DNA from: Fidelibacterota bacterium
GTDB lineage: Bacteria > Fidelibacterota > Marinisomatia > SCGC-AAA003-L08 > TS1B11
Length of the DNA: 41,998 nt
Assembly (NCBI GenBank): GCA_020354025.1
Contig: CP070638.1
Location: 1,020,731-1,062,728, forward strand
Direction of reading: 5' to 3'
Part shown: positions 3,276 to 41,744 of the stretch, in pieces
Layout of the letters: each line of letters starts with the position of its first letter
Numbering within the stretch: the first letter of the stretch is position 1
Notes under the pieces: model-generated
The model's input: the letters and a program-made list of their open reading frames with translations, nothing else
The model's database searches: none
What the model was told of the DNA's origin: nothing
Translations under genes and position numbers: made by a program

Positions 3276-3279
3276 GGCT

Positions 3280-4164: not shown

Positions 4165-4165
4165 C

Positions 4166-6314: not shown

Positions 6315-6489
6315 TCCAAAGCTGCCATAGAGGGAATATTTTTCCGCCCCTCAGGTCCCTTGATCTCCCGTCCTCTTCATACTTCATCCCAAACCGCCGA
6401 TATTCAGACAATATAACCGCCCTGATTCGACCATATTCCCTTCGATAAAAGGACCTGAGCCGCAAAAAGATGATCCCGCGGCCACCTTT

Positions 6490-6505
6490 TGGCACGGCAT
6501 TTGAA
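6490..6505 (+). promoter_or_regulatory. Possible sigma-54 type -24/-12 promoter upstream of flgF
   Basis: The sequence TGGCACG, four bases, then TTGAA resembles the sigma-54 consensus TGGCACG-N4-TTGCA at the correct spacing and lies 38 bases before the flgF ATG. The -12 GC is GA here, which is a serious deviation. Rod and hook genes are often sigma-54 dependent, and this is the only sizeable gap in the flagellar cluster, so a promoter is expected in it. No other convincing promoter was seen. Confidence 0.35.
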
Positions 6506-6542
6506 CCTAATGACGTCAGCAAGACATGTTTAAGAGGACATT

Positions 6543-7256: not shown

Positions 7257-7265
7257 GGAGGCAGC

Positions 7266-8054: not shown

Positions 8055-8059
8055 ATCGA

Positions 8060-8800
8060 ATGCCAGCTAACCGCCTCAGCCCTGATCGGATATTGACTGC
8101 CGTTTTCCTGGCAGGCTTAATCTGCACTTTCGCAGGTTATTTGCAGGCGAGGACGGACCAGGGAGCGACTATAAAGGATCGACTGCGGGAAGCCGTGCAC
8201 CGGCAGGTCGCAGAGGGATTCCGAAAAGCCGATCTCCTGGCCGAAGTAATTGCCGTCCATCTGCCGCGCAACGTTGATGAGCTTGATCCTGATGCCGCCA
8301 TTAGGCCCCTGCGGGCTTTTCTGCCCCGACAGGCGGCGGGGCGGTACGTGATCCCCCTGGAAATCACGTCACATGAAGGCTCAGTGGTCAAGGTGAATAC
8401 AACGGTGGAGTGCGCGGCCGTAGTGAAAGGTTGGACCGCCCGTTTCCCCATAAGACGGGGATCGCTGATCAAACCAGAGAATTTTCAACGCAAGCAGATC
8501 CGGGTTACCCGGCGTGAACAGGAGTATTTTACCGCCGATTCCCTGCCTGAAGGCTATCAGATGAGCAGCAACCTGGCTCAGGGGCAGCTGCTGCGATTTC
8601 ACCACCTGGAGGAAATACCGGTGGTGCAGCGCGGCCAGCAGGTGATGATTCACTTCTGCCGCCGCAGCCTTACGTTGATCAGCCCCGGAAAAACCCGCAG
8701 GGAAGGCAAGATTGGTGATCTGATTCCCGTGATAGCCAGCACTACTGGAAAACGGCTCTACGGCCGGCTGGTATCCCCGGGGATCGTTGTAGTGGAGTAA
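8060..8800 (+). CDS. flgA: Flagellar P-ring chaperone FlgA
   Basis: FlgA is a periplasmic chaperone needed to assemble FlgI into the P ring. The 246-residue protein has an N-terminal signal peptide (about 1-30, hydrophobic core ILTAVFLAGLICTFAGY). Residues from about 125 onward form the SAF/ChapFlgA region: RFPIRRGSLIKPENF, then LAQGQLLRFHHLEE, the typical SAF progression, and the end VIASTTGKRLYGRLVSPG. It lies between flgG and flgH, the common arrangement flgF-G-A-H-I. The ring genes downstream encode its client. Confidence 0.93.
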   Translation: MPANRLSPDRILTAVFLAGLICTFAGYLQARTDQGATIKDRLREAVHRQVAEGFRKADLLAEVIAVHLPRNVDELDPDAAIRPLRAFLPRQAAGRYVIPLEITSHEGSVVKVNTTVECAAVVKGWTARFPIRRGSLIKPENFQRKQIRVTRREQEYFTADSLPEGYQMSSNLAQGQLLRFHHLEEIPVVQRGQQVMIHFCRRSLTLISPGKTRREGKIGDLIPVIASTTGKRLYGRLVSPGIVVVE

Positions 8801-8804
8801 AGCT

Positions 8805-9470
8805 ATGAAAAGCAACTTACATGTGCCGATGAAGCGGCTGGCTGCCGCCCTCATCATTCTGGTCGCTGGTAATCTGGTCTACGGACAGGAAGCGCCCTTT
8901 TCACTCTACGCTGACCGGAAGGCTCGGCGGGAGGGGGACATGGTGACTGTCCTGGTTTCGGAAACGGCCAACGCCAGCCGCCAGTCCCAGGTCCAGAGAG
9001 CCGGCGACAACACGGTGGATGCGTCGGGCAAAGTGGAGGGGAACCTGCTTCAGTTCCTGCCTCTATTCGGTCTGCGTTCCAATCTGAAGACCGATTCGAA
9101 TTCTAAGGAAGGCACCGCCCAGAAGGATCTGTTGACCGGACGGATTTCCGCGGTGATTACCGAAATTACCGACAACGGCCTGTTCAGGATCACCGGGTCA
9201 AAAGTTATTAACGTGAACGGTGAGCGCAACCTCATGACCATCAAGGGGACCATCCGGTCCCGGGACATCAGGTCAGACAACACCATCTTTTCCTACAACG
9301 TAGCCGATGCCAGGGTATATTACAGCAAAGCCGGGGTTGCCGGGAAGCTCATGCAGCGTGGGACTTTCGAGCGGCTGGCCAACCTCATCATGGGTGGCGC
9401 GGGCTTGGCCCTGATCGGATACGTCGGTGGTATCAGCGCCCTCACCATTATCAGGAGTCTTAGCCTATAA
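8805..9470 (+). CDS. flgH: Flagellar L-ring protein FlgH, apparently without lipobox
   Basis: FlgH forms the L ring in the outer membrane. The 221-residue protein shows family motifs SLYADRKARREGDMVTVLVSE near the mature N terminus, then the GRISAVITEITDNGLFRI block and NVNGE. It has a signal peptide (about 1-27, cleavage near VYGQ-EAP), but there is no cysteine in the whole protein. The lipid-attachment cysteine present in most FlgH proteins is therefore missing. The C terminus carries a hydrophobic stretch of about 22 residues (about 192-217), longer than usual. It may compensate for the missing lipid anchor, which is inference. The stop overlaps the flgI start (TAATG). Confidence 0.93.
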   Translation: MKSNLHVPMKRLAAALIILVAGNLVYGQEAPFSLYADRKARREGDMVTVLVSETANASRQSQVQRAGDNTVDASGKVEGNLLQFLPLFGLRSNLKTDSNSKEGTAQKDLLTGRISAVITEITDNGLFRITGSKVINVNGERNLMTIKGTIRSRDIRSDNTIFSYNVADARVYYSKAGVAGKLMQRGTFERLANLIMGGAGLALIGYVGGISALTIIRSLSL

Positions 9471-10600
9471 TGAGACGGTATCTTTTTTACTTTTTCCTAG
9501 CAGCAATCCTGGGTTCTCAGCAGCTGACAGCCCAGGCAGCAAGCCGCATCAAGGATGTGACCACATACCGCAATATCCGACGGGTTACCCTGGTCGGATA
9601 TGGTCTGGTAGTGGGACTTAACGGCACCGGTGACCGGGCAGTCGGTAACCGGGGAACCATCTTCACGGTACAGAGCATTGCGAATATGCTGGAAGAATTC
9701 GGACTTACCGTTGACAGCCAGCATCTGCGCACGCGGAACGCGGCTGCCGTGATGGTGACCGCAGCAACCCCGTCATTTGGAAAGCCGGGGACCAGGTTCG
9801 ATGTGAACGTTTCCTCCCTGGGAGATGCTACCAGCCTGGAGAACGGCGTCCTGCTGATGACTCCTTTGCGCAGCGCGATCGGTGATTACTACGGTCTGGC
9901 CCAGGGGCCGGTTTCTGTGGGGGGATTTAACGTCACTACCCTTGGCGGCGAACGACTGCGCCAGAATTATGCCCTGGTGGGCCGGGTGCCTGACGGGGCC
10001 GTCCTGGAGCGGGACGTCGAGGAAGTAGCCCTCCAGCCGGATCAGCCGGTAGAACTCCTCTTGAAGGAACCCAATTATACTACTGCTTCCCGCATCGCCG
10101 GGACCATCAATGACTTTAGAGCCGATGTTGCGCCCCTGGCACAAGCCCTGGACGCCAGCATTGTGCAGGTCTCTTTCCCGCCGGGCCTCAGCCAGGCCGG
10201 GGATTTAGTGCAGTTCGTGGCCAGTATTGAGACCCTCCAGGTCGTCCAGGACGTGGAAGCCCGGGTGGTCATCAACGAGCGCACGGGCACCGTTGTGGCT
10301 GGTGGCAATGTATCCATTGGAGCCGTGCTGGTCTCCCATGGTTCTCTCCAGATTCATACCACCACGGCGCCCTACGTAGCCCAACCTTCGCCCTTCAGCA
10401 CCGGACAGACCGTAACGATCCCGATCACTCACACCACGGTAACCGAGCAGCCGGGCGAGGCGACAGTCCTTTCGGCGGCTACGGTATTGGAACTGTCGGC
10501 GGCCCTCAACGATATGGGCTTCAAGCCGCGTGATGTCATTGCGGTCTTCCAGGCTATCAAGGAAGCGGGGGCTTTGAACGCCAGGCTCATTATCATGTAG
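9470..10600 (+). CDS. flgI: Flagellar P-ring protein FlgI
   Basis: FlgI forms the P ring in the peptidoglycan layer as a bushing around the rod. The 376-residue length is standard. A signal peptide occupies about 1-24 (cleavage near AQA-A). The mature protein starts with SRIKDVTTYRNIR and has the signature GYGLVVGLNGTGD at 43-55. The C-terminal half contains RVVINERTGTVVAGGNV, and the end reads LNDMGFKPRDVIAVFQAIKEAG. Both are highly typical. The ATG overlaps the flgH stop, so ring proteins are probably co-translated. Confidence 0.97.
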   Translation: MRRYLFYFFLAAILGSQQLTAQAASRIKDVTTYRNIRRVTLVGYGLVVGLNGTGDRAVGNRGTIFTVQSIANMLEEFGLTVDSQHLRTRNAAAVMVTAATPSFGKPGTRFDVNVSSLGDATSLENGVLLMTPLRSAIGDYYGLAQGPVSVGGFNVTTLGGERLRQNYALVGRVPDGAVLERDVEEVALQPDQPVELLLKEPNYTTASRIAGTINDFRADVAPLAQALDASIVQVSFPPGLSQAGDLVQFVASIETLQVVQDVEARVVINERTGTVVAGGNVSIGAVLVSHGSLQIHTTTAPYVAQPSPFSTGQTVTIPITHTTVTEQPGEATVLSAATVLELSAALNDMGFKPRDVIAVFQAIKEAGALNARLIIM

Positions 10601-10610
10601 CAGTGAGACG

Positions 10611-11009
10611 ATGGAGATCAAAGGCACAGAACACCAGGGCATCCCGATCCGACCGAAGGGATCTTCTGCACCAGCGGGTCAATCACCGGCAGCCGGGAAT
10701 GACAAGCAACTCTGGAAGGCCTGCCAGAACTTTGAGGCCTTGTTCATGGGCTACCTGGTAAAGAGCATGGAACGGACCCTGCCACAGGGATCCCTCTCCA
10801 GCAGCGGTCTGCCAGATCTCATGTTTGACCAGGTGATGGGGTCCGCTCTGAGTGAGGGTGGAGGTATCGGTCTGGCGGAGCTGCTTTACCGGGATCTGCA
10901 ATCTCAAACATTCCGGGATTCGTCCGAGAATGATAATGGAATCTCGCTACAAGATCTACTCACGCGCAATGTGAGAAAGGAAGAAAATGACCAAGCATCC
11001 AGCCGCTGA
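10611..11009 (+). CDS. flgJ: Rod-binding protein, FlgJ N-terminal type
   Basis: This 132-residue protein carries only the rod-binding (rod-cap) domain of FlgJ. The motif FEALFMGYLVKSM is at 41-53, and GGGIGLAELLYRDLQ appears near residue 92. The peptidoglycan-hydrolysing domain found in gammaproteobacterial FlgJ is absent, as in many other phyla where a separate enzyme digests the wall. The N-terminal 30 residues are low-complexity. The gene follows flgI by 10 bases and overlaps the flgN start by 23 bases. Confidence 0.88.
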   Translation: MEIKGTEHQGIPIRPKGSSAPAGQSPAAGNDKQLWKACQNFEALFMGYLVKSMERTLPQGSLSSSGLPDLMFDQVMGSALSEGGGIGLAELLYRDLQSQTFRDSSENDNGISLQDLLTRNVRKEENDQASSR

Positions 11010-11505
11010 ACGCCTGATTGTCAGACTGATTACCGTTCTGTCTGAAGAGATGCGGATGTATAACGAGCTGCTGCTCGTACTCCGAAAGAAGCAGTCGAGT
11101 ATTATCGAGGGCACGCTTGAAGGATTGAAGGAGACCGTAGAACAGGAGCAGAGCATCCTCAGGAAATCCGAGGCAGTAGCCGCTACCAGGGAAGCATCCC
11201 TGAAGGAGGTCAGTAAGGCGCTGGGGCGGGATGGTGACATCCAGACCCTGGATCAGCTGATCGAGCTCGTAGAGTCCACCTATGCCGAACGCCTGTCAGA
11301 CATTCATCGCAGTCTCCAACGGATCGTGCAGGAAGTGATATTGACCAATGAGGAGAACCGCTACCTGCTTGATTACTCCATTAAGTTCGTGCGAGATGCC
11401 GCCCGGGAGCTCATCAAGTCGTCTGAGAAGTTTCCGGTATATTCCGCCGAAGGAATTGGTAGGAAAGAAGGTTCAGGTTCCAACCTGATCGAGGGGAGGA
11501 TCTGA
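10987..11505 (+). CDS. flgN: FlgN-type chaperone for hook-filament junction proteins
   Basis: FlgN is a cytosolic export chaperone for FlgK and FlgL. The 172-residue protein is almost entirely helical with long heptad-like stretches: residues about 8-60 (LIVRLITVLSEEMRMYNELL) and about 100-140 with RIVQEVILTNEENRYLLDYS, which is the expected FlgN layout. The C-terminal 25 residues look disordered, as expected for the client-binding tail. It sits directly before flgK, its presumed client, with a one-base gap, and overlaps flgJ. Confidence 0.82.
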   Translation: MTKHPAAERLIVRLITVLSEEMRMYNELLLVLRKKQSSIIEGTLEGLKETVEQEQSILRKSEAVAATREASLKEVSKALGRDGDIQTLDQLIELVESTYAERLSDIHRSLQRIVQEVILTNEENRYLLDYSIKFVRDAARELIKSSEKFPVYSAEGIGRKEGSGSNLIEGRI

Positions 11506-11506
11506 C

Positions 11507-12865
11507 ATGGCCGGTCTCACTAACATATCAGAGATGGGCAAGCAGGGGATGCTGCTTTCCCAGTTCAGCATTCAGATAACCGGTAAGAACATATCCAATA
11601 TAAATACCGGGGGCTACAGCCGGCAGCGGCTCGATGTCAATCCCATTCTGCCGGAATTACTGTCCGGTTTCAGTCTGGGCAGCGCCATTAACGGCGATAC
11701 TCTCCGGCGCATCCGTGAAGATTTCATTGATCGTCAGATATGGAGCCAGAGCTCCCTCGAGTCCCGCTACACCGCAGAGGAATCCCTCCTGCGGCAGGTT
11801 GAGGGTGTATTACCGTCGAGCAACGACACTGGCCTGGGGCCTTTACTGGACGAGTTCTGGAGCGCCTGGAACAGTCTGGCCAATGATCCGGAGAGTTCCG
11901 TCGCCAGGACCATCGTACGGGATCGGGCTCAGACCCTGGCTCAGAGCTTCAACCGGGTGCACCGTGAGTTTGTTGCTTTCCAGAAAACGGTCAGCAACGA
12001 GGTCAATGTCAGGATTGGTGAAATCAACAACCTGGCATATCAAATCGCCGAGCTGAACCGCGTCAATCCCGGCGATAACCTGGACCTCGAAGATCAGCGG
12101 GACCGCCTGATTGACCGGCTGTCGGAATTGATCAATATTGATGTCCAGCGTGATGGTGACAGCGTGCTGGTATCTACTTCCGGCCTGATGCTGGTCTCCG
12201 GCAGAAACTCCTACGAAATATCAGTGGACGAGTCTATCAATGAGGAGGGTATCGGCCAGATCACTGCTCTGATCAGCGGCACCAGCCGGGAGGTGAATGT
12301 GATCTCAGGAGAGCTCAGTGCTCTGCTGACGGTTTATAATGATGATGTCCCCGGTCTCCTGGAGCGTCTGGATAGACTGGCCGTGACCCTAGTTGAACAG
12401 GTGAACGCCATTCACCAGAACGGCTTTAACCTGAGTGGTATCACGGGGCTGGATTTCTTTGACAGCACAACTGAAGGCGCCAGCTCCATTGCTGTTGATA
12501 GTGCCATTTCTTCTAATGTTGAGCTCATCGCCTCCAGCGACGCCCTTGGCGAGACCGGCAACGGCAATATTGCTAAAGCTCTCGCTGATCTGGCGGATAA
12601 GGAGGTTATCGGTAATCAGACCATGGGGGCATATTATCGCGCTCTGGTAGGTACCCTTGGTAACCGCATTCAGGAAATTGAATTCTTGAGGGGTAACCAG
12701 GAAAAGATCGTCTCGCATCTGAAAATGCAGCGGGAGTCGGTCTCAGGGGTAAGCATGGAAGAGGAGATGACCCGGATGGTGCAGCTGGAACAGGCTTTTA
12801 CCGCTGCATCGAGACTGGTATCCACCGCCGATGAGCTGACGAGAACTGTATTGCAGATGATCTGA
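11507..12865 (+). CDS. flgK: Flagellar hook-associated protein FlgK (HAP1)
   Basis: FlgK forms the first hook-filament junction ring. The 452-residue protein has the N-terminal D0 helix with GKNISNINTGGYSRQR (family-typical), then the LGPLLDEFWSAWNSLANDPES block, which is highly conserved in FlgK. The C terminus ends with SVSGVSMEEEMTRMVQLEQ and AFTAASRLVSTADEL, the matching D0 helix. It lacks the large variable middle domain of longer FlgK proteins, so it is near the short end of the family. AGGGGAGGA precedes the ATG closely. flgL follows after 18 bases. Confidence 0.96.
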   Translation: MAGLTNISEMGKQGMLLSQFSIQITGKNISNINTGGYSRQRLDVNPILPELLSGFSLGSAINGDTLRRIREDFIDRQIWSQSSLESRYTAEESLLRQVEGVLPSSNDTGLGPLLDEFWSAWNSLANDPESSVARTIVRDRAQTLAQSFNRVHREFVAFQKTVSNEVNVRIGEINNLAYQIAELNRVNPGDNLDLEDQRDRLIDRLSELINIDVQRDGDSVLVSTSGLMLVSGRNSYEISVDESINEEGIGQITALISGTSREVNVISGELSALLTVYNDDVPGLLERLDRLAVTLVEQVNAIHQNGFNLSGITGLDFFDSTTEGASSIAVDSAISSNVELIASSDALGETGNGNIAKALADLADKEVIGNQTMGAYYRALVGTLGNRIQEIEFLRGNQEKIVSHLKMQRESVSGVSMEEEMTRMVQLEQAFTAASRLVSTADELTRTVLQMI

Positions 12866-12883
12866 TGAAAGTAGAGGTTTTTC

Positions 12884-13756
12884 ATGCGTGTTACAGATAG
12901 CCTGATAAAAGATCAAATCATAAACTTCCTTTCAGCCAACCAGGAAAGCTTGGCTGATGTACAGCGGCAAATTAGCACTAACAAGGAGGTAACCCGTTCT
13001 TCCGATGACCCGGTAAGATTCGACCGAGCCGGCAGGTTAAAGAGCCTGCTGGAGAAAAATGAGCAGTATACGGGTAATATCGAAGATGGGATTGCCTGGA
13101 TTGTAATGGGTGCTGAATCGCTGGATATTGTTTACGAAGCGCTGCAGCAGGCCAAGCAATTGGCCCTGCAGACCAGGAGTGATGCGGGTCCCAGCACGCG
13201 GGCTCAAGTTGTAGAGTACGTAGAGGCATTGATCGAGGAAATGGTTCTTATGGGGAATACCCGTTTTATGGGCAAATATATTTTCGGGGGAACTATCACC
13301 AAGGATACCGAACCCTTCGTCTACGACGGTACCTCTGTCACCTACAACGGGAACAGTGGCGCCATCACACGGAAGGTGGGTGACGATACCTATCTGGAGA
13401 TCAATACGACTGGCTCGGAGTTTCTCAACGTATTCGGGGCGGTCATTGATCTCCGCGATGCTCTCGTTGCCAGCGACGGGTTGGCTATAGATGCCGCCAT
13501 AGCCGATATCGATTCCGTTTCCCAGCAGCTTCTGAATACTATTGCCCGGGCCGGATCGATGCAGCGTAAACTCGAACTCACCCGTGACAATTTAGAGATA
13601 GCCAAGGTCAATTTACAGGCCTACATTTCACAGGCGGAGGATGTGGATTTGACAGAGGCTATTCTCCAATTTAACGCTAAAGAGCTGGGGTATCGGGCTG
13701 CTCTGGAGTCCAGTGCACGCATTATGAATATCAGTATACTCAATCACCTGCAATAG
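12884..13756 (+). CDS. flgL: Flagellar hook-associated protein FlgL (HAP3)
   Basis: FlgL forms the second junction ring, between FlgK and the filament. The 290-residue protein has a flagellin-like N-terminal D0/D1 region (ADVQRQISTNKEVTRSSDDP with the SDDP turn typical of FlgL and flagellin), a short middle domain with MGKYIFGGTITKDTEPF, and a C-terminal flagellin-like helix. The FGG-T..PF motif separates FlgL from flagellin. fliW follows after two bases. Confidence 0.94.
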   Translation: MRVTDSLIKDQIINFLSANQESLADVQRQISTNKEVTRSSDDPVRFDRAGRLKSLLEKNEQYTGNIEDGIAWIVMGAESLDIVYEALQQAKQLALQTRSDAGPSTRAQVVEYVEALIEEMVLMGNTRFMGKYIFGGTITKDTEPFVYDGTSVTYNGNSGAITRKVGDDTYLEINTTGSEFLNVFGAVIDLRDALVASDGLAIDAAIADIDSVSQQLLNTIARAGSMQRKLELTRDNLEIAKVNLQAYISQAEDVDLTEAILQFNAKELGYRAALESSARIMNISILNHLQ

Positions 13757-20976: not shown

Positions 20977-22335
20977 ATGGCCAGGGGAGTGCTATCGGTA
21001 TGTATGATCGTTCGCAATGAAGCCCGGCTGCTGCCGGATTGCCTTGACAGTATCTCCGCGGTAGTTGACCAGCTGGTAGTGGTGGATACCGGCTCGAGTG
21101 ATGATACGGTCTCTATCGCCAGCTCTTTCGGCGCCCAGGTCCATCATTTCAAGTGGATTGACGATTTCGCCGCCGCCCGCAACGAGTCCATCCGACACGC
21201 CACCGGCGACTGGATCTTCTGGCTGGATGCTGATGAGCGCTTGACACCGGCCTCCGTTGAGCCCCTTAAACGGCTCCTTAAACCGCCCCAGCGGCCCACG
21301 ATCTACCGGGTTCAGATCAGGAACCTACAGGTGGACAGGCAAAGCTGCACCCTGTCAATGTCCCACCGGCTTTTTTCCCGTCATCCCCGGCTGCGCTTTT
21401 CCGGCCGTATTCACGAGCAGGTCCATCCCAGCCTGAAAGCCGCTGGAGGGGTGGAAAAACCCTCCCGGGTGGTCCTCGAGCATCAGGGCTATGCCCTCGA
21501 AGAGGATCAGATGCGGGCTAAGCTGAAGCGCAACCAGACCCTCCTGGAGGCTATGGTTGAAGAGCAGCCGGATTCGGCCTATGCCCACTATACTCTGGGT
21601 CAGAACTATGCTCTGCTTGGCCTGCATGAAAAGGCACTGCAGGTGTATCTCCGCGCCCAGGAGATCAACGCCTTTACCGGACCGTCGGTCGCCACTCTCC
21701 TGAACGCCTTGGCCGAAACCTCCTGGCATATGGACCGGCTGGACGAGGCGGAGTCCTATGCCCGTGAATCCCTGGCCGTCACCCGGCGGCAGACCAGCGG
21801 GAGCTTTATTTTGTATCGGGTTATGCGATCACGTGGAGATATCCGCGGGCAGATTGAAAACCTCGAAAGCATACTGCCCTTCTCATCAGGGGGGACACCG
21901 GGCTCTCAAAGTGATTTACCGAAAGACGTTCTTCTGCCCCGGAAGCATGTACTATTCAGCCTGGGACAACTGTATCTTTCGGCCGAAGACTATGCCGCAG
22001 CGGAAAAAGTATTGAGGGAATGCCTCGCATTACAGCCGGACAGTCAGGAAACCCGGGAGATGCTAGTTTCCTCACTTGCCCGACGAAATCTCTGGGAGGA
22101 GCTGCTAGCTGTCCTGGCCGACCTGCAGCAGCCTCCGTCTGACCACCATCGTGAAATGGGGGGTGTAGCTCTACTTAAGCTGCAGCGCTTTGAGGAGGCT
22201 ATCATCTACTACAGTGCCTGGCTCAAGGATAAACCCGATCACGAGGGACTGCGCAAGAGACTGGCAGGGATTTATGCCAAGGTGGGTGATAGGGAAGCCG
22301 CACAACGCGTACTGGAAGGGAAGAGCCCTTCCTGA
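20977..22335 (+). CDS. Family 2 glycosyltransferase with TPR repeats
   Basis: This 452-residue protein has an intact GT2 domain (about 5-190): LSVCMIVRNEARLLPDCLDS, VVDTGSSDDTVSIA, the FAAARNESIRHATGDWIFWL region and the LDADE motif (83-87) that binds metal and the sugar nucleotide. Residues about 190-445 contain TPR-like repeats (YAHYTLGQNYALLGLHEKAL and YLSAEDYAAAEKVLRECLAL). The type is common in 'SunS/TPR glycosyltransferase' proteins that modify peptides or surface polymers. It closes the module and is two bases from the preceding pseudo-enzyme, so the two products could act as a pair. Confidence 0.87.
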   Translation: MARGVLSVCMIVRNEARLLPDCLDSISAVVDQLVVVDTGSSDDTVSIASSFGAQVHHFKWIDDFAAARNESIRHATGDWIFWLDADERLTPASVEPLKRLLKPPQRPTIYRVQIRNLQVDRQSCTLSMSHRLFSRHPRLRFSGRIHEQVHPSLKAAGGVEKPSRVVLEHQGYALEEDQMRAKLKRNQTLLEAMVEEQPDSAYAHYTLGQNYALLGLHEKALQVYLRAQEINAFTGPSVATLLNALAETSWHMDRLDEAESYARESLAVTRRQTSGSFILYRVMRSRGDIRGQIENLESILPFSSGGTPGSQSDLPKDVLLPRKHVLFSLGQLYLSAEDYAAAEKVLRECLALQPDSQETREMLVSSLARRNLWEELLAVLADLQQPPSDHHREMGGVALLKLQRFEEAIIYYSAWLKDKPDHEGLRKRLAGIYAKVGDREAAQRVLEGKSPS

Positions 22336-22455
22336 ATGCACCCGCTGCGGTCGCTTTCGGAAAACCGATTGCGGCAGACCTGCAACATATGCCTGATTAT
22401 ATTAATTTGGGCCATGTATAATATTTTGATACAATTTCATTATTTTTTTTTGGTA

Positions 22456-22497
22456 ATCCGCATAAATAATCCTATATTTACACCAATCATTGCGGAT
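22456..22497. promoter_or_regulatory. Inverted repeat upstream of the Xre-type regulator
   Basis: ATCCGCA (22456-22462) and TGCGGAT (22491-22497) form a perfect 7-base inverted repeat separated by 28 AT-rich bases, about 95-135 bases before the regulator ATG. A TTGACA (22522-22527) with a weak -10 (GATACA, 22547-22552) follows. The layout suits an operator for the adjacent helix-turn-helix protein, but the half-site spacing is wide and the -10 is poor. Confidence 0.35.
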
Positions 22498-22590
22498 CAT
22501 AAAAAGCAATAACTCCGAGTTTTGACAACAGATCAACTCTCAGAGAGATACAAACAATAATACAACAACATGCAATAAGGATTGTGCAGT

Positions 22591-23019
22591 ATGACGACCA
22601 ATTTTACTTGGCAGTTCGGTGAGCGTTTCCGACAAATTCGAAGAGCGGCTAGGATCACTCAGGAAGAGTTCGGCGAGATTCTGGGTGTGAGTCGCCAGAC
22701 CATCAATGCTTATGAAAATGATCGCCAGCGCCCCCCTCTCGATATGATGGAGAAAGTGTGCCATCTACAGGGAATATCACCCCATTGGCTCCTGACCGGA
22801 CGGGGTGAGTCCAGGTTGGATACAGCCTTTCCATCTATCGAAGGTAGCGGAGCCCCCATTTCTGCCATGGAAGAGGTCCTCGCTCCCGAACAGCGCGCAT
22901 TGATAAACTACATCACCGAAGATAAGGCGCGGGCTGTCAAATTGGCTCGTTATCTACTGGATGAGGCCCTAAGGCATCTCCCAACAGCTGAGGGCGAGGA
23001 AAAATCCGGCGATCAATAG
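22591..23019 (+). CDS. Xre-family helix-turn-helix transcriptional regulator
   Basis: The 142-residue protein has an HTH_3/Xre domain at about 10-66: ERFRQIRRAARITQEEFGEI, then LGVSRQTINAYENDRQRPPL, with the QEEFGEILGVSRQTI recognition pattern. The segment ISPHWLLTGRGE is typical of regulators related to phage repressors and of short stand-alone Xre proteins. The remaining 70 residues are helical and not recognised. ATG at 22591 was preferred to the GTG at 22582 because AAGGA lies nine bases upstream of the ATG but only a few before the GTG. The gene stands alone after an AT-rich promoter region. Its target is unknown. Confidence 0.85.
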   Translation: MTTNFTWQFGERFRQIRRAARITQEEFGEILGVSRQTINAYENDRQRPPLDMMEKVCHLQGISPHWLLTGRGESRLDTAFPSIEGSGAPISAMEEVLAPEQRALINYITEDKARAVKLARYLLDEALRHLPTAEGEEKSGDQ

Positions 23020-23096
23020 CGTTCATCTCGCCTACCTGACCCTACTATCATACTATTATTCCCGTCGCTCCAGTCGGCATCGTTATCTCGTGTTGT

Positions 23097-23123
23097 ATGG
23101 GAGAGAGAGGATTTCTCTCCCAT
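23097..23123. repeat. 10-base-pair hairpin in the gap after the Xre gene
   Basis: ATGGGAGAGA (23097-23106) and TCTCTCCCAT (23114-23123) form a perfect 10-base-pair stem with a seven-base loop, GAGGATT. No T run follows on either strand, so it is not a classical intrinsic terminator. It could be a transcript-end stabiliser of the regulator gene (77 bases after its stop) or a protein-binding site. Confidence 0.45.
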
Positions 23124-23257
23124 GTCGTACGGCCTTTGACATCGATCCGGCAGCCCGCATTGATCCGTCAAAAGCCGTTGCCTGGATGGCCCGGAGCTAG
23201 CGTCCTTACGTCCGCTCAGGAATATATTGATCTTGCATATATGTAAGCGCTGATCTG

Positions 23258-24217
23258 ATGGGACCGCGAAAAATGAGACCCATTCTGCTTATCCTGTGGT
23301 TGGCCGCGGCGCTGTTCTTATATACCTCGTGCGGCGCCGGCCGGACAGCCGCGCCCCGCCCCCAGGATTCGAATTACCTGGAACCGTACATCCTCATCGG
23401 GGAAAGCGGTAAGAGTGTCAAGCGGACAGCGAGTGATATCATCGGGCGGCTGTTTATGCAGAATTTCCAGATCCTGGGCAAGTACGCGCCCGCCGATGAC
23501 CCCGGCCGTTTTGTCATTGTAGTAACTAACCCTGATCTGTTGAATGCAGTGCAAGGGAGCAAGCCCGCGGCCGCGCTCGCCGCCGTTGTACGCATAGCCA
23601 TCACGCGTGAGGGGGAAATGACCTATGTCTCCTGCCAGAATCCCGACTACTGGGCCAGCGCCTGCCTTCAGGAGGACTACCTCTCGGCGGCGGAGCCGAT
23701 CGCCCTGTTCAAGCAGGACCTGCTGGCTGCCATGCCTAGGATGCGGGGACGCTTCAACCGTCCCTTCGGCAACAGCCAGGGCCATCCACTGACGGCCGAA
23801 GCGCTCCACGACTACCGTTTTCAGCGAGGGGCGGAATCTCTCAATGACCTGGTCAACCTGGCAATCTTCGATTCTTTTGAGGGGGCGGTGGCCGCCATCG
23901 AAAAACGCCTGGCTGCCTCCCGGTTGATCACTAAAGTTTTCGGGATGACCGTGCCCGGAAGGCAGGTAATGCTATTCGGCTTGGCCCTGGGCGGGGATTC
24001 GGGAGAGAAGCGGATCCTTACACTCCTGGATGCCGATAGGCTGAAGCGTACCGCCAGCCTGCCGTACGAGCTGCTGGTGTCAGGAAACCGGGTGGCCATG
24101 CTCCCGGTCCGGTTCCGCCTGCCTCTCAGCTTTCCCGACATGGACCGGAAGACCTACCGCCGGCTCGAAGCCCTGGAGGGTGATATCAGTAGCCTGATGA
24201 CAACCCTGGTGGAGTGA
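23258..24217 (+). CDS. Putative lipoprotein of unknown function
   Basis: The 319-residue protein has an N-terminal signal peptide with a hydrophobic core (LLILWLAAALFLYTS) and a cysteine in lipobox-like context (TSC at about 23-25), so it is probably a lipoprotein. The mature part shows no family I can name. It has an alpha/beta composition, a region beginning YILIGESGKSVKRTASD, and a conserved-looking C-terminal part. An alternative ATG at 23273 gives a shorter, equally good signal peptide; neither has a strong ribosome-binding site. It lies alone between the Xre regulator and the convergent metalloprotease gene. Confidence 0.7.
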   Translation: MGPRKMRPILLILWLAAALFLYTSCGAGRTAAPRPQDSNYLEPYILIGESGKSVKRTASDIIGRLFMQNFQILGKYAPADDPGRFVIVVTNPDLLNAVQGSKPAAALAAVVRIAITREGEMTYVSCQNPDYWASACLQEDYLSAAEPIALFKQDLLAAMPRMRGRFNRPFGNSQGHPLTAEALHDYRFQRGAESLNDLVNLAIFDSFEGAVAAIEKRLAASRLITKVFGMTVPGRQVMLFGLALGGDSGEKRILTLLDADRLKRTASLPYELLVSGNRVAMLPVRFRLPLSFPDMDRKTYRRLEALEGDISSLMTTLVE

Positions 24218-24292
24218 TCAGCGGCCGGCGGAGTCGGGTGGGAGAGGTGGTTGGCCGGGATTCAGGCGGAGCGGGCCGGCGCGTGAGAAAGA

Positions 24293-25054
24293 CTACGCGA
24301 ACAGGTTAACGAGAACAGGCTCCGGCTGGGGCGTGGTTATCCCGCCCTCCTGGCTGTATTCCTCGGCCTGCTTCTGGGTCTCTTCGGCCCTCTGGCGGGC
24401 CAGTTCCATGCGGGCTTCGAACTCCATCCGTGTGGCTGCCGCGGCTACCCGCAGGTCCGCAGGAGATGGATCGCTGGGTGCCAGGGCCGCCCTCCTCACC
24501 GCCTGGGCTTTCTGGATCGTGGCCTCGGGATCATCGGGCACCTCGGAAGTATCGATCTGCACCTCGCCGCCCACGGCGTAGAGCTTGCCGTCGGGCCCGA
24601 CAACAGTGTCAAACTCGGCCCGCCGGATGATATACTGCCCGCCCGCCATGACGTGTGCCTGTTCGTGCGCCCTGACGGCGGCGTCCCGGGCTTTCAGCTC
24701 CTCAACCTGTGCTTTCTCTTCCGGCGTGAGCTCCAACGCACCGGGACCGCTCTTGGGAGCGCTGTGCGGTCCGGGGCGCTCGGCGGCCGAGGGCGGGCGT
24801 TCGCTTGAGGCTTTAGGCTGATTCTCCCGGGCGGCGATACCGCCTTCCGGTACACTGGTCGTTGAGCGGGCGTCGGCTTCGCTCTTATTGCCGGGGATCG
24901 AAGCCGGCTCGTAGGTGTCGCGATAGCGGTCTGGCTCGGGCGCACCTCCGACCTGGCCGGTGGCCTGCTCGGGGGCTGCCTCAGACGGCTGCCCCGGCCA
25001 CGGTTGTTGGGTCTCGGGGGCAACAGGGTGAATGGCTATCGCCGATAACTCCAT
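24293..25054 (-). CDS. SprA-related putative zinc metalloprotease
   Basis: The C-terminal half matches the SprA-related family (Pfam PF12118, 'putative metalloprotease CJM1_0395 family'). It includes VRAHEQAHVMAGGQY with the zincin HExxH signature (His130-Glu131...His134), then YAVGGEVQIDTSEVPDDPE and a QKAQAVRRAALAPSDPS block that is characteristic of the family. The first 105 residues are Pro/Ala/Ser-rich and probably disordered. There is no signal peptide. Homologues occur in many bacteria, often flagellated ones, and their substrate is not established. The gene points toward the lipoprotein gene and away from hgcB. Confidence 0.85.
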   Translation of the reverse strand: MELSAIAIHPVAPETQQPWPGQPSEAAPEQATGQVGGAPEPDRYRDTYEPASIPGNKSEADARSTTSVPEGGIAARENQPKASSERPPSAAERPGPHSAPKSGPGALELTPEEKAQVEELKARDAAVRAHEQAHVMAGGQYIIRRAEFDTVVGPDGKLYAVGGEVQIDTSEVPDDPEATIQKAQAVRRAALAPSDPSPADLRVAAAATRMEFEARMELARQRAEETQKQAEEYSQEGGITTPQPEPVLVNLFA

Positions 25055-25415: not shown

Positions 25416-25682
25416 CTAGCCGCAGGAAACCTCTTTTTGCCCTTTCAGGGCGGTTATCATCATGGCGGTGGCACAGCCGACGCCACTGTCGACGCTGATC
25501 GCTCCGGTGGGACAGTTGACCTGGCAGGCGCCGCACTCCATGCAACGTTCAGGGTACTCCAACCGGACCGCACCGTTCATTCTAAGAAATACGGCGTGGG
25601 GGCAGACGGTTGTGCACATCACGCAGTTGTTGCAGAGCTCCGGGTTGAAGCGAAGGGTGTTGACTGTATAGGCGTTCAGCAT
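25416..25682 (-). CDS. hgcB: HgcB, ferredoxin partner of the mercury methylation pair
   Basis: HgcB is the 2[4Fe-4S] ferredoxin needed with HgcA for methylmercury formation; it is thought to reduce the HgcA corrinoid. From the ATG at 25682 the protein has 88 residues. The first cluster motif is CNNCVMCTTVCP (Cys17, 20, 23, 27) and the second is the HgcB-typical CMECGACQVNCP (Cys47, 50, 53, 57). Additional cysteines follow at 70 (GVGC) and 87 (SCG), matching the conserved central and C-terminal cysteines of HgcB that ordinary ferredoxins lack. The ATG begins two bases beyond the hgcA stop and has CAGGG upstream; a TTG at 25688 overlapping hgcA is the alternative start. Confidence 0.95.
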   Translation of the reverse strand: MLNAYTVNTLRFNPELCNNCVMCTTVCPHAVFLRMNGAVRLEYPERCMECGACQVNCPTGAISVDSGVGCATAMMITALKGQKEVSCG

Positions 25683-25684
25683 GG

Positions 25685-26692
25685 TCAAACCCTGATGAAC
25701 CGCATAATAGTCATCACGATAGAGATCACCACTCCGCTGCCGAACATCCAGGCCATGACTGGAAAGAAGGTGAATATTTCCTTTCGCACGCCGCTCCGGG
25801 ACGTAAAGGTAGTGGAGCCAGTGAAATTCAGGGCCAGGAAGGCGGTGATGGATGGTATCAGGAGCAGGTGGGTCAATCCCCAGATGGATCGTTGCCAGAG
25901 TTCAGTATCGGTCCCGCCGGTGAACCGGATCACGATGAAGGGTACTGCCGCCAGCCCGCCCAGGATGAAGCCCTTGGTGCTGAAATTAGCTGTCGGTATC
26001 CATGGGAATAGGATCGGGAAGAGCACTGCCCCCAGGGTGATGGCGACCGCGGCGCCCAACGCGGCCGGCAGGCCCCCTATCAGGTAAAACAGCAAGGCGA
26101 TAACAGCCGTTGGGATGAGCATGTGAATCACCTCTACGGGGAAGAGCACCAGGCGGTCCTTGAGGGTGAACCGTACGCGCCGCATTTCATCAGTCGCTTC
26201 GCCGGTCTTGAGATAAGCCGGCAGGTCCCGGGCGCGGACCGGGCCGTACTGGACAATGAAACCGGAGCGTTTTTTCACCTCATGGGCGGCGGTACCCGGA
26301 GCGCCCAACTGGGGAACGATCAGTTTGCGATGTACGACGACATCGGCCAAGCTGGTGGCTTCGATGCGCTGGACCAGCTCATCAGTACCGAAAGTCCCTT
26401 TACCGGCGGCACACCAGACGTTGATGCCCTTGGTATCCAGGACCAGGATGTAACCGTCCACTCTCTTCAGGGCTGAGCGAAGAGCATCGAAGCTCAGGGA
26501 GTAATTCGCGCTGGCGAAAACCGGTGACTTGGGTCCGGGATCGCCAATAGCATAGAGACCCGGTTCAATGTGGCTTTTATTGCGCCCGAAACCTAATCGC
26601 TTTTTTAAATGGTCCCAACGGTTAGCCAGGGTAATGTGCGCCGAAATAGTCGGGATGTTCGGAGCAGGGGTGTCTGTTGTTTGCGAGGGCAT
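25685..26692 (-). CDS. hgcA: HgcA, corrinoid-dependent mercury methyltransferase
   Basis: HgcA transfers a methyl group from its corrinoid cofactor to Hg(II). The 335-residue protein starts with EPGLYAIGDPGPKSPVFASA near residue 43 and the SLSFDALRSAL block, as in the corrinoid domain of the CO-dehydrogenase corrinoid protein. The diagnostic cap helix NVWCAAGKGTF is at 91-101, with Cys94 as the expected lower-axial cobalt ligand (Cys93 in Pseudodesulfovibrio ND132). Five membrane segments lie between about 181 and 333, and the C-terminal loop contains NFTGSTTFTSRSGVRKE, also family-typical. No residue of the signature is missing, so activity is plausible. hgcB follows with a tight junction. 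No arsR-type regulator is next to it. Confidence 0.97.
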   Translation of the reverse strand: MPSQTTDTPAPNIPTISAHITLANRWDHLKKRLGFGRNKSHIEPGLYAIGDPGPKSPVFASANYSLSFDALRSALKRVDGYILVLDTKGINVWCAAGKGTFGTDELVQRIEATSLADVVVHRKLIVPQLGAPGTAAHEVKKRSGFIVQYGPVRARDLPAYLKTGEATDEMRRVRFTLKDRLVLFPVEVIHMLIPTAVIALLFYLIGGLPAALGAAVAITLGAVLFPILFPWIPTANFSTKGFILGGLAAVPFIVIRFTGGTDTELWQRSIWGLTHLLLIPSITAFLALNFTGSTTFTSRSGVRKEIFTFFPVMAWMFGSGVVISIVMTIMRFIRV

Positions 26693-26898: not shown

Positions 26899-27531
26899 TT
26901 ACACCCCTGCCGGATTTTCTTTCTGGGCACGTACCTTACATTGGCTGATGAATAGGAATATCCATCCCAGCACAAAGAATATCATGATGTGCAGCGGGCT
27001 GTCTGGATCTCCCCCCTCCAGGGCTGGCAGAAACGGCTCCGCTAACGATCCGCAGGTGAACCAGGCTCCTATCACCAGGAATACGTAGCCCGCCATTCTG
27101 AGATCGGCGGCCGTGGCGGACGAATTCGACAATGCCCGCCGTTCCTTGGCCCAGAACCACAGGATCCCCAGGAAGCACGCCAGGATCAACGATCCGCCAA
27201 GCCCGAAGAGTGGAGGGATATGCGCCGGGAACATGCCTGCGACACCTACCACGAGCCCCGCCAGCATTGCCACGCCATATTTCCACACCGTAGCTCCTGC
27301 GGCACCGGAATAGAGCAGCATCCCGAATCCGGCCACCAGCGCCCCTACCGGGACACCCACTAGCCCCCATATCGGCAGCCAGGGCCCGTTCGGAGCCCAC
27401 ATGGTCTGGTCCACCTCGGCCCTCGTCAAATGGTAGGCCTCGTTCGCAAAAACCGATCCCACTAAACCCCAGAGAATTGCCCACAGCGCCGCAATCCCGA
27501 ATAGGGTCAGGCCGACTTTTTGTCTGGTCAT
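26899..27531 (-). CDS. Six-helix membrane protein of unknown function
   Basis: This 210-residue protein has about six hydrophobic segments spread over its length (near 5-27, 52-74, 84-103, 108-128, 148-172, 181-197) with short loops and a short basic C terminus. No signature residue or family was recognised. GAGGGAGAATAAT precedes the ATG, a good ribosome-binding site. It lies 206 bases upstream of hgcA on the same strand, so the three genes could share a transcript, but the gap is large enough for a separate hgcA promoter. A role in mercury handling is not shown by the sequence. Confidence 0.7.
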   Translation of the reverse strand: MTRQKVGLTLFGIAALWAILWGLVGSVFANEAYHLTRAEVDQTMWAPNGPWLPIWGLVGVPVGALVAGFGMLLYSGAAGATVWKYGVAMLAGLVVGVAGMFPAHIPPLFGLGGSLILACFLGILWFWAKERRALSNSSATAADLRMAGYVFLVIGAWFTCGSLAEPFLPALEGGDPDSPLHIMIFFVLGWIFLFISQCKVRAQKENPAGV

Positions 27532-31363: not shown

Positions 31364-33769
31364 TCATTCCTCCCTCAAAGTCTCTGTCGGGTTTGCAGTA
31401 GCGGCTTTTACTGTTTGAGAGCTGATAGTAATCAGAGCCAGCATTAAAATGAAGATCAGGGCCGCGGGTAGCACCCAGAGACTCAAGCCAGGCCTGAAGG
31501 CGAAAAACTGGTAGAACATGCTTGAAAGAAAGTACGCGGCTGGTATGGCGAACGCAGCGGAATACAAAATCAGTTTTATATAGTCCTTCGAAAGCAGGTA
31601 CGCCAGATTGGAGACGCTCGCTCCGAGCACTTTTCTAATACCGATTTCCTTTATTCTCATCTCGGTACTGTAAATTGCCATTCCGAGAAGTCCTAAAAGC
31701 GCTATAAGTATGACAAATCCAGCGGCCCAGCTGAAAATTCCAATTATACCACCTATTTCGCTGTCCGACTGTTGCTTAGCGTCATCGAAAAATTCATATC
31801 TCACACCATGAACTTCATCAAACTTTTTCCACGTATCTTGTAGGTATGCTCTAATCTCATCTTTCGTTCCCGGTGCATAACGGATATTAACGAATCGAAA
31901 CTCTTGGGGCCTGTATCGAAGAACTAAAGCAGTGATCGGTTCATCTGGATAGTAATAGATAAAGTTCTTTACAACCCCTATCACCATGACTTCCAAACCA
32001 TCGCCGGCAATAAGCGTTTTTCCGATAGACTCAACCGGCGAACCGAGATCAAAAACCCGAAGGGCCTCTTGGTTAACAATAATTGCATTTTCCATATCGG
32101 TAGAAAACTCAGGAGAAAAATTTCGTCCTGCGAGTAATTCTATATTGAAATTATTAATGAATCCTGGATCAACACTATAGTAGAATGTACTCCTAGGTTT
32201 TTCCATATCATCATTTCTTATATCTAACGCTCTCTGACTTCCATATATCGGCACTTCGTTTGATAAAGAAACATCGGTAATATTGCTATTCGAATTAATT
32301 TCATTCCTGAAAATCTCATGATTCACATCTTGTAGATATATATTAACTAAATTTTCTGTCTCGATTCCGTAATTTAGTGTCGTTAAATAAGTATAAAGGT
32401 GTTGGGAATATATTATGAAAATTATAAAAATTAACGAGACCGCGAATTGTATTCCCATCAGTATTTTTCTTGTCAGGAGATGAGATATTCCCTTTATTCT
32501 CGAGACTCCCTTCAGCGCATTAACCGGTTGAAATGAAGAAAGATACAAGGCCGGGAATAATCCTGCCAGAATGCTTACGCCTGTTGCGAAAAGGATGAAA
32601 ATAAGGTATAGGCCGGGATCTTTCATCTGTTGAATATTTATTTGCAGCTTACTGTTTTCTATAAGGTCTAATCCGTTAAAAGCAGGGATCAACCAGAGAA
32701 TTAAAAGACACGCAGAAATAAGTGCAAAAGTAGTGATCGCAAATGTCTCGCAAAGAAACAACTTGATAATCTGGCTCCTGCTTGCGCCAATCACTTTATG
32801 AAGCCCGATTTCTCTTGTGCGTTTCAATGAGTGGGAAATGGATAAAATGACATAATTAAAGCACGCTATAAACATTATCAAAATGGCTAAAAACGGAATG
32901 AATATTAATTCAAAAGATTTCACTGTTCCAGGCATAGATCGCCAAAGATTTATTCCTAAATTGATTTTTAATAGCGGCTGGACCTTAAATCCGTACCTTT
33001 CATTCTCCGGTTCCGGAAAAATGACATCGGCGATTTCAGTACAATGCTCTTTTAATAGTGACTGATCAGCTTTGTTTTTTAGAAGAACATATGTATAGTA
33101 GCTTTCGAAAGATGACCAGTCGTTCACATCAGTGTCGAAAGCACCACTATTCTCTAGGGATAAAACGGTAGCAAACGAAAATAAGGCGTCAAATCTGAAA
33201 TGTGATTTCTTTTCTAAATCTCTCAAGACGCCGGTGACCGTAAAATCACCTAGTTTTTCAAAAGTCAGTGTCTTATTGATTGGATCGTCATTTCCGAAGA
33301 ACTTGAACGCGGTCTCCTCGGATATAACGATCGAATACGGTTCATCCAATGCCGTTTGCGGATTGCCTGCCTTTAACTGGTAACTGAAAATGTTGAAGAA
33401 AGACGGCTCGGCGTACATGCCGCCGACGAGGATAGCTGCTCCTTCGTGAATAACACTTCCCCCGTTATGCCTCAATCTCACGGCGTCTTCAATGAATGGG
33501 TAATTGTTCAACAGATACGACGCTAAGGATCCGGGGGTGGTCGCAAAGCCTCTCACCTCCGAATACACTATCTCCTTGTCGGTTGTGTATACCCGGACTA
33601 TCCGGTCCCTTTTCTCATGAAACCGGTCGCTGCTTTTCTGGTCTTTGATAAAGATGATGATCATCAGGCAGATGGATATGCTGAGGGCGAGTCCGAAAAT
33701 GTTTATACTTGAGAAGCCCTTGTGCTTAAGCATTGTTCTGAAAGTAATTCTGAGATAGGTACTAATCAT
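31364..33769 (-). CDS. MacB/FtsX-type ABC transporter permease, orphan
   Basis: The 801-residue protein has two MacB-PCD/FtsX units, the design common in Bacteroidota-type ABC permeases. An N-terminal helix near 20-40 (INIFGLALSISICLMIIIFI) is followed by a large periplasmic domain with FATTPGSLA and the YSIVISEETAFKFFG block. Three membrane segments follow (about 285-410), then a helix near 440 and a second periplasmic domain with VNQEALRVFDLG. The last three helices (about 670-790) include IKEIGIRKVLGASVSNLAYL. It probably moves a lipid, peptide or lipoprotein, or senses envelope stress. No ATP-binding gene is adjacent. The gene is visibly more AT-rich than the flagellar genes, which suggests transfer. 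Confidence 0.9.
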   Translation of the reverse strand: MISTYLRITFRTMLKHKGFSSINIFGLALSISICLMIIIFIKDQKSSDRFHEKRDRIVRVYTTDKEIVYSEVRGFATTPGSLASYLLNNYPFIEDAVRLRHNGGSVIHEGAAILVGGMYAEPSFFNIFSYQLKAGNPQTALDEPYSIVISEETAFKFFGNDDPINKTLTFEKLGDFTVTGVLRDLEKKSHFRFDALFSFATVLSLENSGAFDTDVNDWSSFESYYTYVLLKNKADQSLLKEHCTEIADVIFPEPENERYGFKVQPLLKINLGINLWRSMPGTVKSFELIFIPFLAILIMFIACFNYVILSISHSLKRTREIGLHKVIGASRSQIIKLFLCETFAITTFALISACLLILWLIPAFNGLDLIENSKLQINIQQMKDPGLYLIFILFATGVSILAGLFPALYLSSFQPVNALKGVSRIKGISHLLTRKILMGIQFAVSLIFIIFIIYSQHLYTYLTTLNYGIETENLVNIYLQDVNHEIFRNEINSNSNITDVSLSNEVPIYGSQRALDIRNDDMEKPRSTFYYSVDPGFINNFNIELLAGRNFSPEFSTDMENAIIVNQEALRVFDLGSPVESIGKTLIAGDGLEVMVIGVVKNFIYYYPDEPITALVLRYRPQEFRFVNIRYAPGTKDEIRAYLQDTWKKFDEVHGVRYEFFDDAKQQSDSEIGGIIGIFSWAAGFVILIALLGLLGMAIYSTEMRIKEIGIRKVLGASVSNLAYLLSKDYIKLILYSAAFAIPAAYFLSSMFYQFFAFRPGLSLWVLPAALIFILMLALITISSQTVKAATANPTETLREE

Positions 33770-37908: not shown

Positions 37909-38715
37909 ATGACCAGCATTTATCGTTTAGGCATGGCGCTTTTTCTTTTATCCTGTGCTTCCACAAAGATCAACCATCAATCCACTCCAATAAATAATAC
38001 TATTTATTCAGGACCAGATGAGGTCGAAACAGTCTATCATTTACAGCCAGGCTCAATTGACGGCTGTTACCTGGTGAAGTATGACGCAAGTTTCATACTG
38101 ATAGATACTGGTGTCTACTCCAAACGCACTGAACTCAGTGGTGCCCTATCCGACATAGGGTGTACACCGGACAATCTAAAACTCATCATAATCACTCATG
38201 GTCATTATGACCATACCGGAAATGCGGCATATCTTCAAAAATCTTTTAATGCTGAAATATTGATGCATAAAAATGATGTGGTAATGGTTGAAAGTGGAAT
38301 TGTCCCCACCAAAACCAGAAAGTTCCGCCCCTTATATGTACGAATGATAGCGCCTTTATTTCTATTATTTTACCGATCAACAATTAATGACCAGGAAAAT
38401 AATTTCGAAATATTTCAACCAGATATCATTGTTGATGATGAAAGTTTTGATCTGCGTCCACACGGATTCAATGCAATTGCCTTGCATATTCCCGGACATT
38501 CGGATGGTTCAATCGCAATCTTAACAGAAGCCAATAACCTTTTTTCAGGCGATATCCTGGTAAATTTTAATAACAAACCAACATTCAACTCGAATATGGC
38601 AGATATCAGTTTCGACGATTTAGACAGCAGCATTGCCAAAATAAAAGAGATGCCAATCAATTATGTATTCCCGGGGCATGGCAAGCCCTTCTCGATGGAT
38701 CGTCTCAGCAGATAA
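37909..38715 (+). CDS. MBL-fold metallo-hydrolase lipoprotein, second paralogue
   Basis: The 268-residue protein has a lipobox (LLSC, Cys16) and the MBL zinc motif HGHYDH at 97-102, with further ligands in IPGHSDGSIAI, LFSGDIL and VFPGHGKPF. It shares the domain order of the protein at 27854-28636, but the residue match is low, so they are not a recent duplication. GGGAGG precedes the ATG. The gene is strongly AT-rich, unlike the flagellar block. The substrate is unknown. Confidence 0.88.
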   Translation: MTSIYRLGMALFLLSCASTKINHQSTPINNTIYSGPDEVETVYHLQPGSIDGCYLVKYDASFILIDTGVYSKRTELSGALSDIGCTPDNLKLIIITHGHYDHTGNAAYLQKSFNAEILMHKNDVVMVESGIVPTKTRKFRPLYVRMIAPLFLLFYRSTINDQENNFEIFQPDIIVDDESFDLRPHGFNAIALHIPGHSDGSIAILTEANNLFSGDILVNFNNKPTFNSNMADISFDDLDSSIAKIKEMPINYVFPGHGKPFSMDRLSR

Positions 38716-41099: not shown

Positions 41100-41744
41100 C
41101 TAAAAGTAAAAGCGGATAAATAGAAGACCTCTCGTTGATATTGATGAAGTAGTTCTTTCTTCATCATCATCCTTTTCGGTTAAAGAAACATACCTTAGTT
41201 GAGCTTCACCACCTAAAGTAAAACTGCTACTTAGGAAATATTCTCCACCAAACGTAGGAGCGATGAATAAACCTGTTCCAGATTCTTCATCAGTTTCGCC
41301 TCCATTATAGTCATACTTATATGATGACGTGGTGCTTATACGTCCTAGGCGCGCGCCATAGTAGAGATTCATTCCACCTCTCAAAGTCATCGGGAAAATG
41401 CCAATCCCTAATGAAAGACCTTTGGAAGATGATTCGTAGTCAGGATCTTCAGTAGATGATTGATAATACCCTATCCCCGGCTCAATCCTGAGCGTTGGCG
41501 ATACATTTATCGGAACGAAGATTATAGGGAGGATACCACCACCCTCTAAAATTTGCATTAGTTCTTTTATATCCGAAATTGTAACTCCTACACCAACCCT
41601 GGTCTCTCTCAGATAAAGAGGTTCTTGTGCATTAAGTAGAACTGGCAAAAGGACTATTAATCCAAGCGATATCACTTTGCCAGAAAGCGCTAACCGTTGT
41701 CTTCGAGAAGGCGGAATATTACATGTGGATGTAAAGTAACTCAT
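41100..41744 (-). CDS. Probable outer-membrane beta-barrel protein
   Basis: The 214-residue protein has a signal peptide (about 18-40, LSGKVISLGLIVLLPVLLNA, cleavage near AQ-E) and then about eight alternating amphipathic strands, for example RIEPGIGYYQSST, LSLGIGIFPM and GGEYFLSSSFTLGGEAQLRY. It ends in an aromatic residue (LLFIRFYF), the usual signal for outer-membrane insertion. It resembles small OmpA/OmpW-size barrels but no named family is certain. GGGGAG precedes the ATG by five bases. A strong terminator follows. Confidence 0.75.
   Translation of the reverse strand: MSYFTSTCNIPPSRRQRLALSGKVISLGLIVLLPVLLNAQEPLYLRETRVGVGVTISDIKELMQILEGGGILPIIFVPINVSPTLRIEPGIGYYQSSTEDPDYESSSKGLSLGIGIFPMTLRGGMNLYYGARLGRISTTSSYKYDYNGGETDEESGTGLFIAPTFGGEYFLSSSFTLGGEAQLRYVSLTEKDDDEERTTSSISTRGLLFIRFYF

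Follow-up and report, generated by a model that had tools for sequence, protein, structure and literature searches.

An hgcA-hgcB gene pair in a flagellated Marinimicrobia bacterium points to a possible second acquisition of hgcAB in this phylum

Methylmercury is a neurotoxin the microbial formation of which depends on the hgcAB genes, and Marinimicrobia occur widely in oxygen-poor seawater. The biochemical steps of HgcAB have been shown or proposed for Pseudodesulfovibrio mercurii (Desulfovibrio desulfuricans) ND132 (PMC11588087, on the purified proteins, and PMC7305189). In this bacterium, Cys93 of HgcA and Cys73 of HgcB are essential; full activity also requires a C-terminal cysteine of HgcB, and mutants show that one is sufficient (PMC7305189); Thr60 and Thr66 of HgcA are corrinoid contacts according to modelling. 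Horizontal transfer of hgcAB is already well described (PMC7438021, PMC7573106). In Marinimicrobia, 15 MAGs that belong to one sublineage carry identical hgcA genes, and the encoded HgcA was placed within Euryarchaeota, with a single transfer proposed (Lin et al. 2021, PMC8163782).

Here we describe an hgcAB locus in the window, that is, the whole stretch of 41,998 nucleotides that was analysed, which corresponds exactly to one contig (1 to 41998), with 100 N on each side and none within. The features relevant to the argument are as follows.

25685 to 26692, minus strand: hgcA, encoding a membrane-anchored corrinoid methyltransferase of 335 aa (identified by NCBIfam NF040863, PF03599, the tree and identity to the congener)
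25416 to 25682 (ATG) or 25688 (TTG), minus strand: hgcB, encoding a 2[4Fe-4S] ferredoxin (identified by NCBIfam NF040864, the HgcB alignment and the cysteine positions)
20977 to 25054, no strand assigned: genus-conserved block adjoining hgcB, encoding a glycosyltransferase/TPR-like protein, an HTH regulator, a 319-aa protein and an SprA-related (PF12118) protein
26899 to 27531, minus strand: gene for a 210-aa protein without a known family, the upstream neighbour of hgcA
41 to 13756, plus strand: flagellar cluster (FlhA, FlhF-like SRP54 GTPase, FlhG-like ParA, FlgG-type, FlgI, FlgK and flagellin), which ties the contig to the host through the identity of FlhA to the congeners

Both hgc reading frames reported in an earlier note on this DNA are present at these positions on the minus strand, and the complete hgcA-hgcB pair which that note proposed is borne out by curated family models, residues and phylogeny. 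The profile search recommended there gives 417 bits for HgcA against the NCBIfam HgcA equivalog model NF040863 (cut-off 275) and 102.4 bits for HgcB against the HgcB equivalog model NF040864 (cut-off 99), so that each protein passes its model. Because of these equivalog-level scores and the recurrence of hgcA-hgcB in identical order at loci L034-L037, a chance match is excluded. The corrinoid domain of CdhD (PF03599 in Pfam) covers residues 41-150 of HgcA. The cap-helix NVWCAAGKGTF, singled out as diagnostic in the earlier note, is indeed there and conforms to the pattern N(V/I)WCA(A/S)GK; it holds Cys94, the equivalent of Cys93 of ND132 and the predicted lower-axial ligand of cobalt, and of 76 HgcA rows that were counted, the window among them, 56 have this same motif. 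The equivalents of Thr60 and Thr66 of ND132 are serines, a state that is common among the sampled HgcA (21/76 and 61/76, respectively). The hydropathy peaks of HgcA sit in the C-terminal half, and five long helical stretches (approximately 184-206, 208-231, 237-257, 263-290 and 301-332) appear in an AlphaFold model that was built from five sequences and is of low confidence (mean pLDDT 43), too poor for a fold search; five C-terminal membrane helices are plausible in the light of this model. The HgcA model has one match in the 3.4-Mb genome to which the window belongs, hence hgcA is a single-copy gene, and this single match also means that the search revealed no CdhE-type CFeSP or HgcAB-like fusion in that genome.

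The hgcB gene adjoins hgcA downstream. The protein consists of 90 aa if read from the listed start, TTG 25688, and of 88 aa if read from ATG 25682, two bases past the hgcA stop; the ATG appears to be the likelier start because the HgcB of the congener likewise begins with MLNAY. Numbered from this ATG, HgcB contains both 4Fe-4S motifs noticed earlier, each of the form CX2CX2CX3C (Cys 17/20/23/27 and 47/50/53/57), along with the extra cysteines, namely, Cys70 within SGVGC, the counterpart of Cys73 of ND132, and one C-terminal cysteine, Cys87, in place of the CC pair of ND132. Judging from the two protein sequences, the window HgcAB includes the minimal residue set known from ND132 mutagenesis, with one terminal cysteine. 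In the comparison with the congener, hgcA has a pN of 0.19, with saturated synonymous sites, and hgcB has a pN of 0.13, and both genes are intact and look to be subject to purifying selection.

The window locus shares with ND132 the gene order, the cap-helix cysteine, the two 4Fe-4S motifs and the extra HgcB cysteine; a five-helix membrane part of HgcA is a plausible further similarity. It differs in the lone C-terminal cysteine of HgcB, in the phylum of the host and in the clade of HgcA, which is distinct from the bulk of Desulfobacterota HgcA; its activity, moreover, is a prediction. Specifically, we infer mercury methylation from the conserved residues, and every catalytic step, as well as expression and activity, is assumed by analogy with ND132, what is seen here being the presence and conservation of residues. 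Under this analogy, the two 4Fe-4S clusters of HgcB would deliver electrons to the corrinoid of HgcA, yielding Co(I), which would accept a methyl group from S-adenosylmethionine to become a methyl-Co(III) species held by Cys94. The methyl group would then pass from the Cys94-ligated cobalt to Hg(II), with Cys70 and Cys87 of HgcB putatively handling Hg(II)/CH3Hg+.

The phylogenetic analysis drew on HgcA encoded in genomes of the same phylum as the window and of the phyla to which the named relatives belong, together with HgcAB-like fusions and CdhE; a careful tree of 57 rows, without archaeal HgcA and without the sequences of Lin et al., was constructed using IQ-TREE (LG+C20 PMSF). The tree separates CdhE (100/100), the HgcAB-like fusions (99/92) and true HgcA (99/98), and the window protein falls inside HgcA, the position that the earlier note had named as confirmatory, and not with CdhE, so that the refuting outcome set by the note did not arise. 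The sister of the window HgcA is the HgcA of the congener CP070787.1 (support 100/94), and the two belong to a mixed-phylum clade of nine sequences (support 100/100) that consists of 2 Marinimicrobia, 2 Chloroflexota, 2 Acidobacteriota (one of these from Aminicenantes) and 3 Desulfobacterota. The sister proteins are 71-74% identical (74% over 318 aa), and the respective HgcB proteins are 79-80% identical. The AU test rejects grouping of the window HgcA with CdhE, with a modest p of 0.034, and with the HgcAB-like fusions (p 0.005); it also rejects a single clade of Desulfobacterota HgcA (p about 5e-100), and such non-monophyly is expected under horizontal transfer. From Dehalococcoidia, there is a partial HgcA with 67% identity to that of the window; its short length kept it out of the tree.

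The HgcAB-like fusions (NF043039), which are carried by several other genomes of the same class, in other families, resemble the window pair in combining a corrinoid domain with a ferredoxin and differ from it in that both are parts of one chain, in their cap-helix variants (e.g., NVWCAATGG) and in forming a clade of their own. In one genome from the order of the window host (G018), a CpaM-type methyltransferase (NF043040) and an HgcAB-like fusion (NF043039) occupy one frame of 630 residues from stop to stop (L008:610-2499), making up a methyltransferase-corrinoid-ferredoxin chain. Another HgcAB-like frame in this genome, of 347 aa and broken off at the contig end (L005, G018:C53), continues past its ferredoxin part into a tail rich in cysteine (GICSCPTCAVI ... 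SCCESEGCGC), which most of the fusions seen do not have. In the Anaerolineales MAG SOHZ01000650.1 (L037:7314-8984), a DUF169 domain (PF02596) is fused upstream of HgcA in the hgcA frame, and hgcB is the separate, next gene.

The genome record is a pseudo-scaffold in which contigs are joined by 100 N, and the same holds for CP070787.1; therefore, gene order outside the window carries no weight as evidence, and the contig needs its own host assignment. The 16S match in the genome is partial because it borders a run of N, and it was set aside in naming the host. FlhA is 80-84% identical to the homologs from three congeners and 72-77% identical to those from other family members. The host is a flagellated Candidatus Marinimicrobia (Neomarinimicrobiota/Fidelibacterota); Neomarinimicrobiota are now Fidelibacterota in the NCBI taxonomy, and CP070787.1 (locus L034) comes from the MAG Candidatus Neomarinimicrobiota bin1478. 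The uncultured, motile, diderm host outside the classic sulfate reducers that the earlier note envisaged agrees with this assignment: because the contig begins with the cluster encoding FlhA, FlgI (P-ring), FlgK and flagellin, the host is predicted to be motile and diderm. A second, partial FlhA-like match in the genome (C1:2925969-2926514; 60% over 187 residues) is either a second flagellar/export gene fragment or part of a contaminating contig.

The block adjoining hgcB (20977-25054) has a collinear counterpart on contig C360 of another congener (G003), the proteins being 61-66% identical in the case of the first three genes and 60% in that of the SprA-related one; there, the gene next to the SprA-related gene is that of pyruvate kinase, not hgcB. 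The HTH gene of this block (22582-23019) probably is not an hgc regulator because it occupies the same site in that congener, which lacks hgcAB, and no shared ArsR/MerR regulator was found beside hgcAB among the neighbours scanned. In CP070787.1, hgcAB is flanked by an EamA transporter gene on one side and genes for transglutaminase-like proteins on the other, so that the flanks of the two loci are entirely different, with no gene in common; the homolog of the 210-aa neighbour of hgcA lies about 128 kb from hgcAB in that scaffolded record. The GC3 of hgcAB, 0.70-0.77, is host-like. On the right of hgcAB, several genes (31364-33769, 37909-38715 and 41100-41744) have a GC3 of 0.30-0.44, compared to 0.6-0.7 on the flagellar side, which suggests an accessory region.

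The HgcA cut-off is exceeded in 2 of the 245 genomes of the phylum, namely, those of the window and of CP070787.1, which make up half of the four genomes of the genus; hgcAB was not found in the other two congeners, one 96% complete (G003) and one 67% complete (G002). Searches of plasmid and phage collections for HgcA yielded no match, nor did a search of viral contigs with the HgcA alignment, and the two matches to the cap-helix DNA pattern in viral contigs (L185 and L186) are neither in an HgcA frame nor homologous to HgcA; hence there is no sign of carriage of hgcAB by phages or plasmids in these collections. The mixed-phylum clade, the patchy presence and the changing flanks fit horizontal transfer of a small hgcAB cassette. 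Most likely, hgcAB would have reached the genus horizontally from an allele pool that is now found in Anaerolineales/Dehalococcoidia, Aminicenantes and certain Desulfobacterota, and would have been relocated or lost within the genus later. Between the two congeners, the identity of HgcA (74%) is close to that of FlhA (80%), which suggests that hgcAB entered once, before the two species split, and was relocated and lost afterwards; alternatively, each congener may have taken up a similar allele on its own.

We consider it highly probable that the window contains a bona fide hgcAB locus, with the methylation mechanism outlined above, that most likely arrived by a horizontal transfer of its own and was subsequently moved or lost within the genus. 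Its proteins might be HgcAB by descent and yet serve the host in a capacity other than mercury methylation, through another native role or with weak activity. HgcAB is not known to have an established physiological role, which counts in favour of this explanation, as does the single C-terminal cysteine of HgcB, and purifying selection indicates a function without telling which; nevertheless, all the residues required in ND132, that is, the equivalents of HgcA Cys93 and HgcB Cys73 and at least one C-terminal cysteine (PMC7305189), are in place and both curated equivalog cut-offs are exceeded, making a different function unlikely. That the corrinoid protein is instead a CdhE/CFeSP subunit, or an HgcAB-like fusion or CpaM-associated paralog, has a negligible probability: the PF03599 domain is common to all these proteins and the nearest solved structures are CFeSP gamma subunits, but the tree and the AU tests are to the contrary, HgcB is a separate gene product with the GVGC cysteine, and the 417 bits with NF040863 contrast with 203 bits for the fusion model NF043039 (cut-off 285) and 74 bits for the CdhE model NF003195 (cut-off 306), which matches the C-terminal corrinoid domain alone. 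CdhE/CdhD (CFeSP) and fusion identities were accordingly rejected. Misassembly or misbinning, with hgcAB coming from another organism, was rejected as well and is very improbable, notwithstanding the contigs joined by 100 N and the HgcA relatives in other phyla, given that hgcAB lies within one N-free 42-kb contig together with the congener-like FlhA and the collinear four-gene block and that a congener encodes the sister HgcA.

Among published systems, this locus can be compared with the Marinimicrobia hgcAB from Saanich Inlet (PMC8163782), which shares with it the phylum, the separate hgcA followed by hgcB and the conserved catalytic residues. Those HgcA sequences lie in Euryarchaeota and represent one monophyletic sublineage, whereas the window HgcA, compared with them through their published description, belongs to the mixed bacterial clade; for this reason, the window HgcA suggests a second acquisition, apart from the type of Lin et al., a step that leans on the text of that study and not on direct sequence comparison. 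An origin of both in one and the same transfer event, after which most of the phylum would have lost hgcAB, is accommodated by the occurrence of both cases in one phylum, by a tree without archaeal sequences, in which the mixed clade might still have a sister group among archaea, and by the congener identities, which would suit vertical inheritance inside the genus. We regard this as a rather improbable origin, in view of the euryarchaeal placement of the published HgcA (PMC8163782) as against the Chloroflexota, Aminicenantes and Desulfobacterota that are the nearest relatives here, and of hgcAB being confined to just two genomes of the phylum. The evidence leaves an evenly balanced case for at least two entries of hgcAB into Marinimicrobia, one archaeal-like and one from the Chloroflexota/Aminicenantes/Desulfobacterota pool, the second type moving as a bare two-gene cassette that would land at new sites even between congeners.

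The finding brings neither a new phylum nor a new mechanism. The wider taxonomic range of predicted methylators anticipated in the earlier note is weakly supported: hgcAB has been known in this phylum since 2021, when the Marinimicrobia genes were published (PMC8163782), and what is added is a genus-level lineage with a probably separate acquisition. If there is indeed a second, bacterial-type hgcAB in Marinimicrobia, then primers and classifiers based on the Saanich Inlet sequences, as well as single-transfer accounts, would miss or misassign part of the Marinimicrobia methylators.
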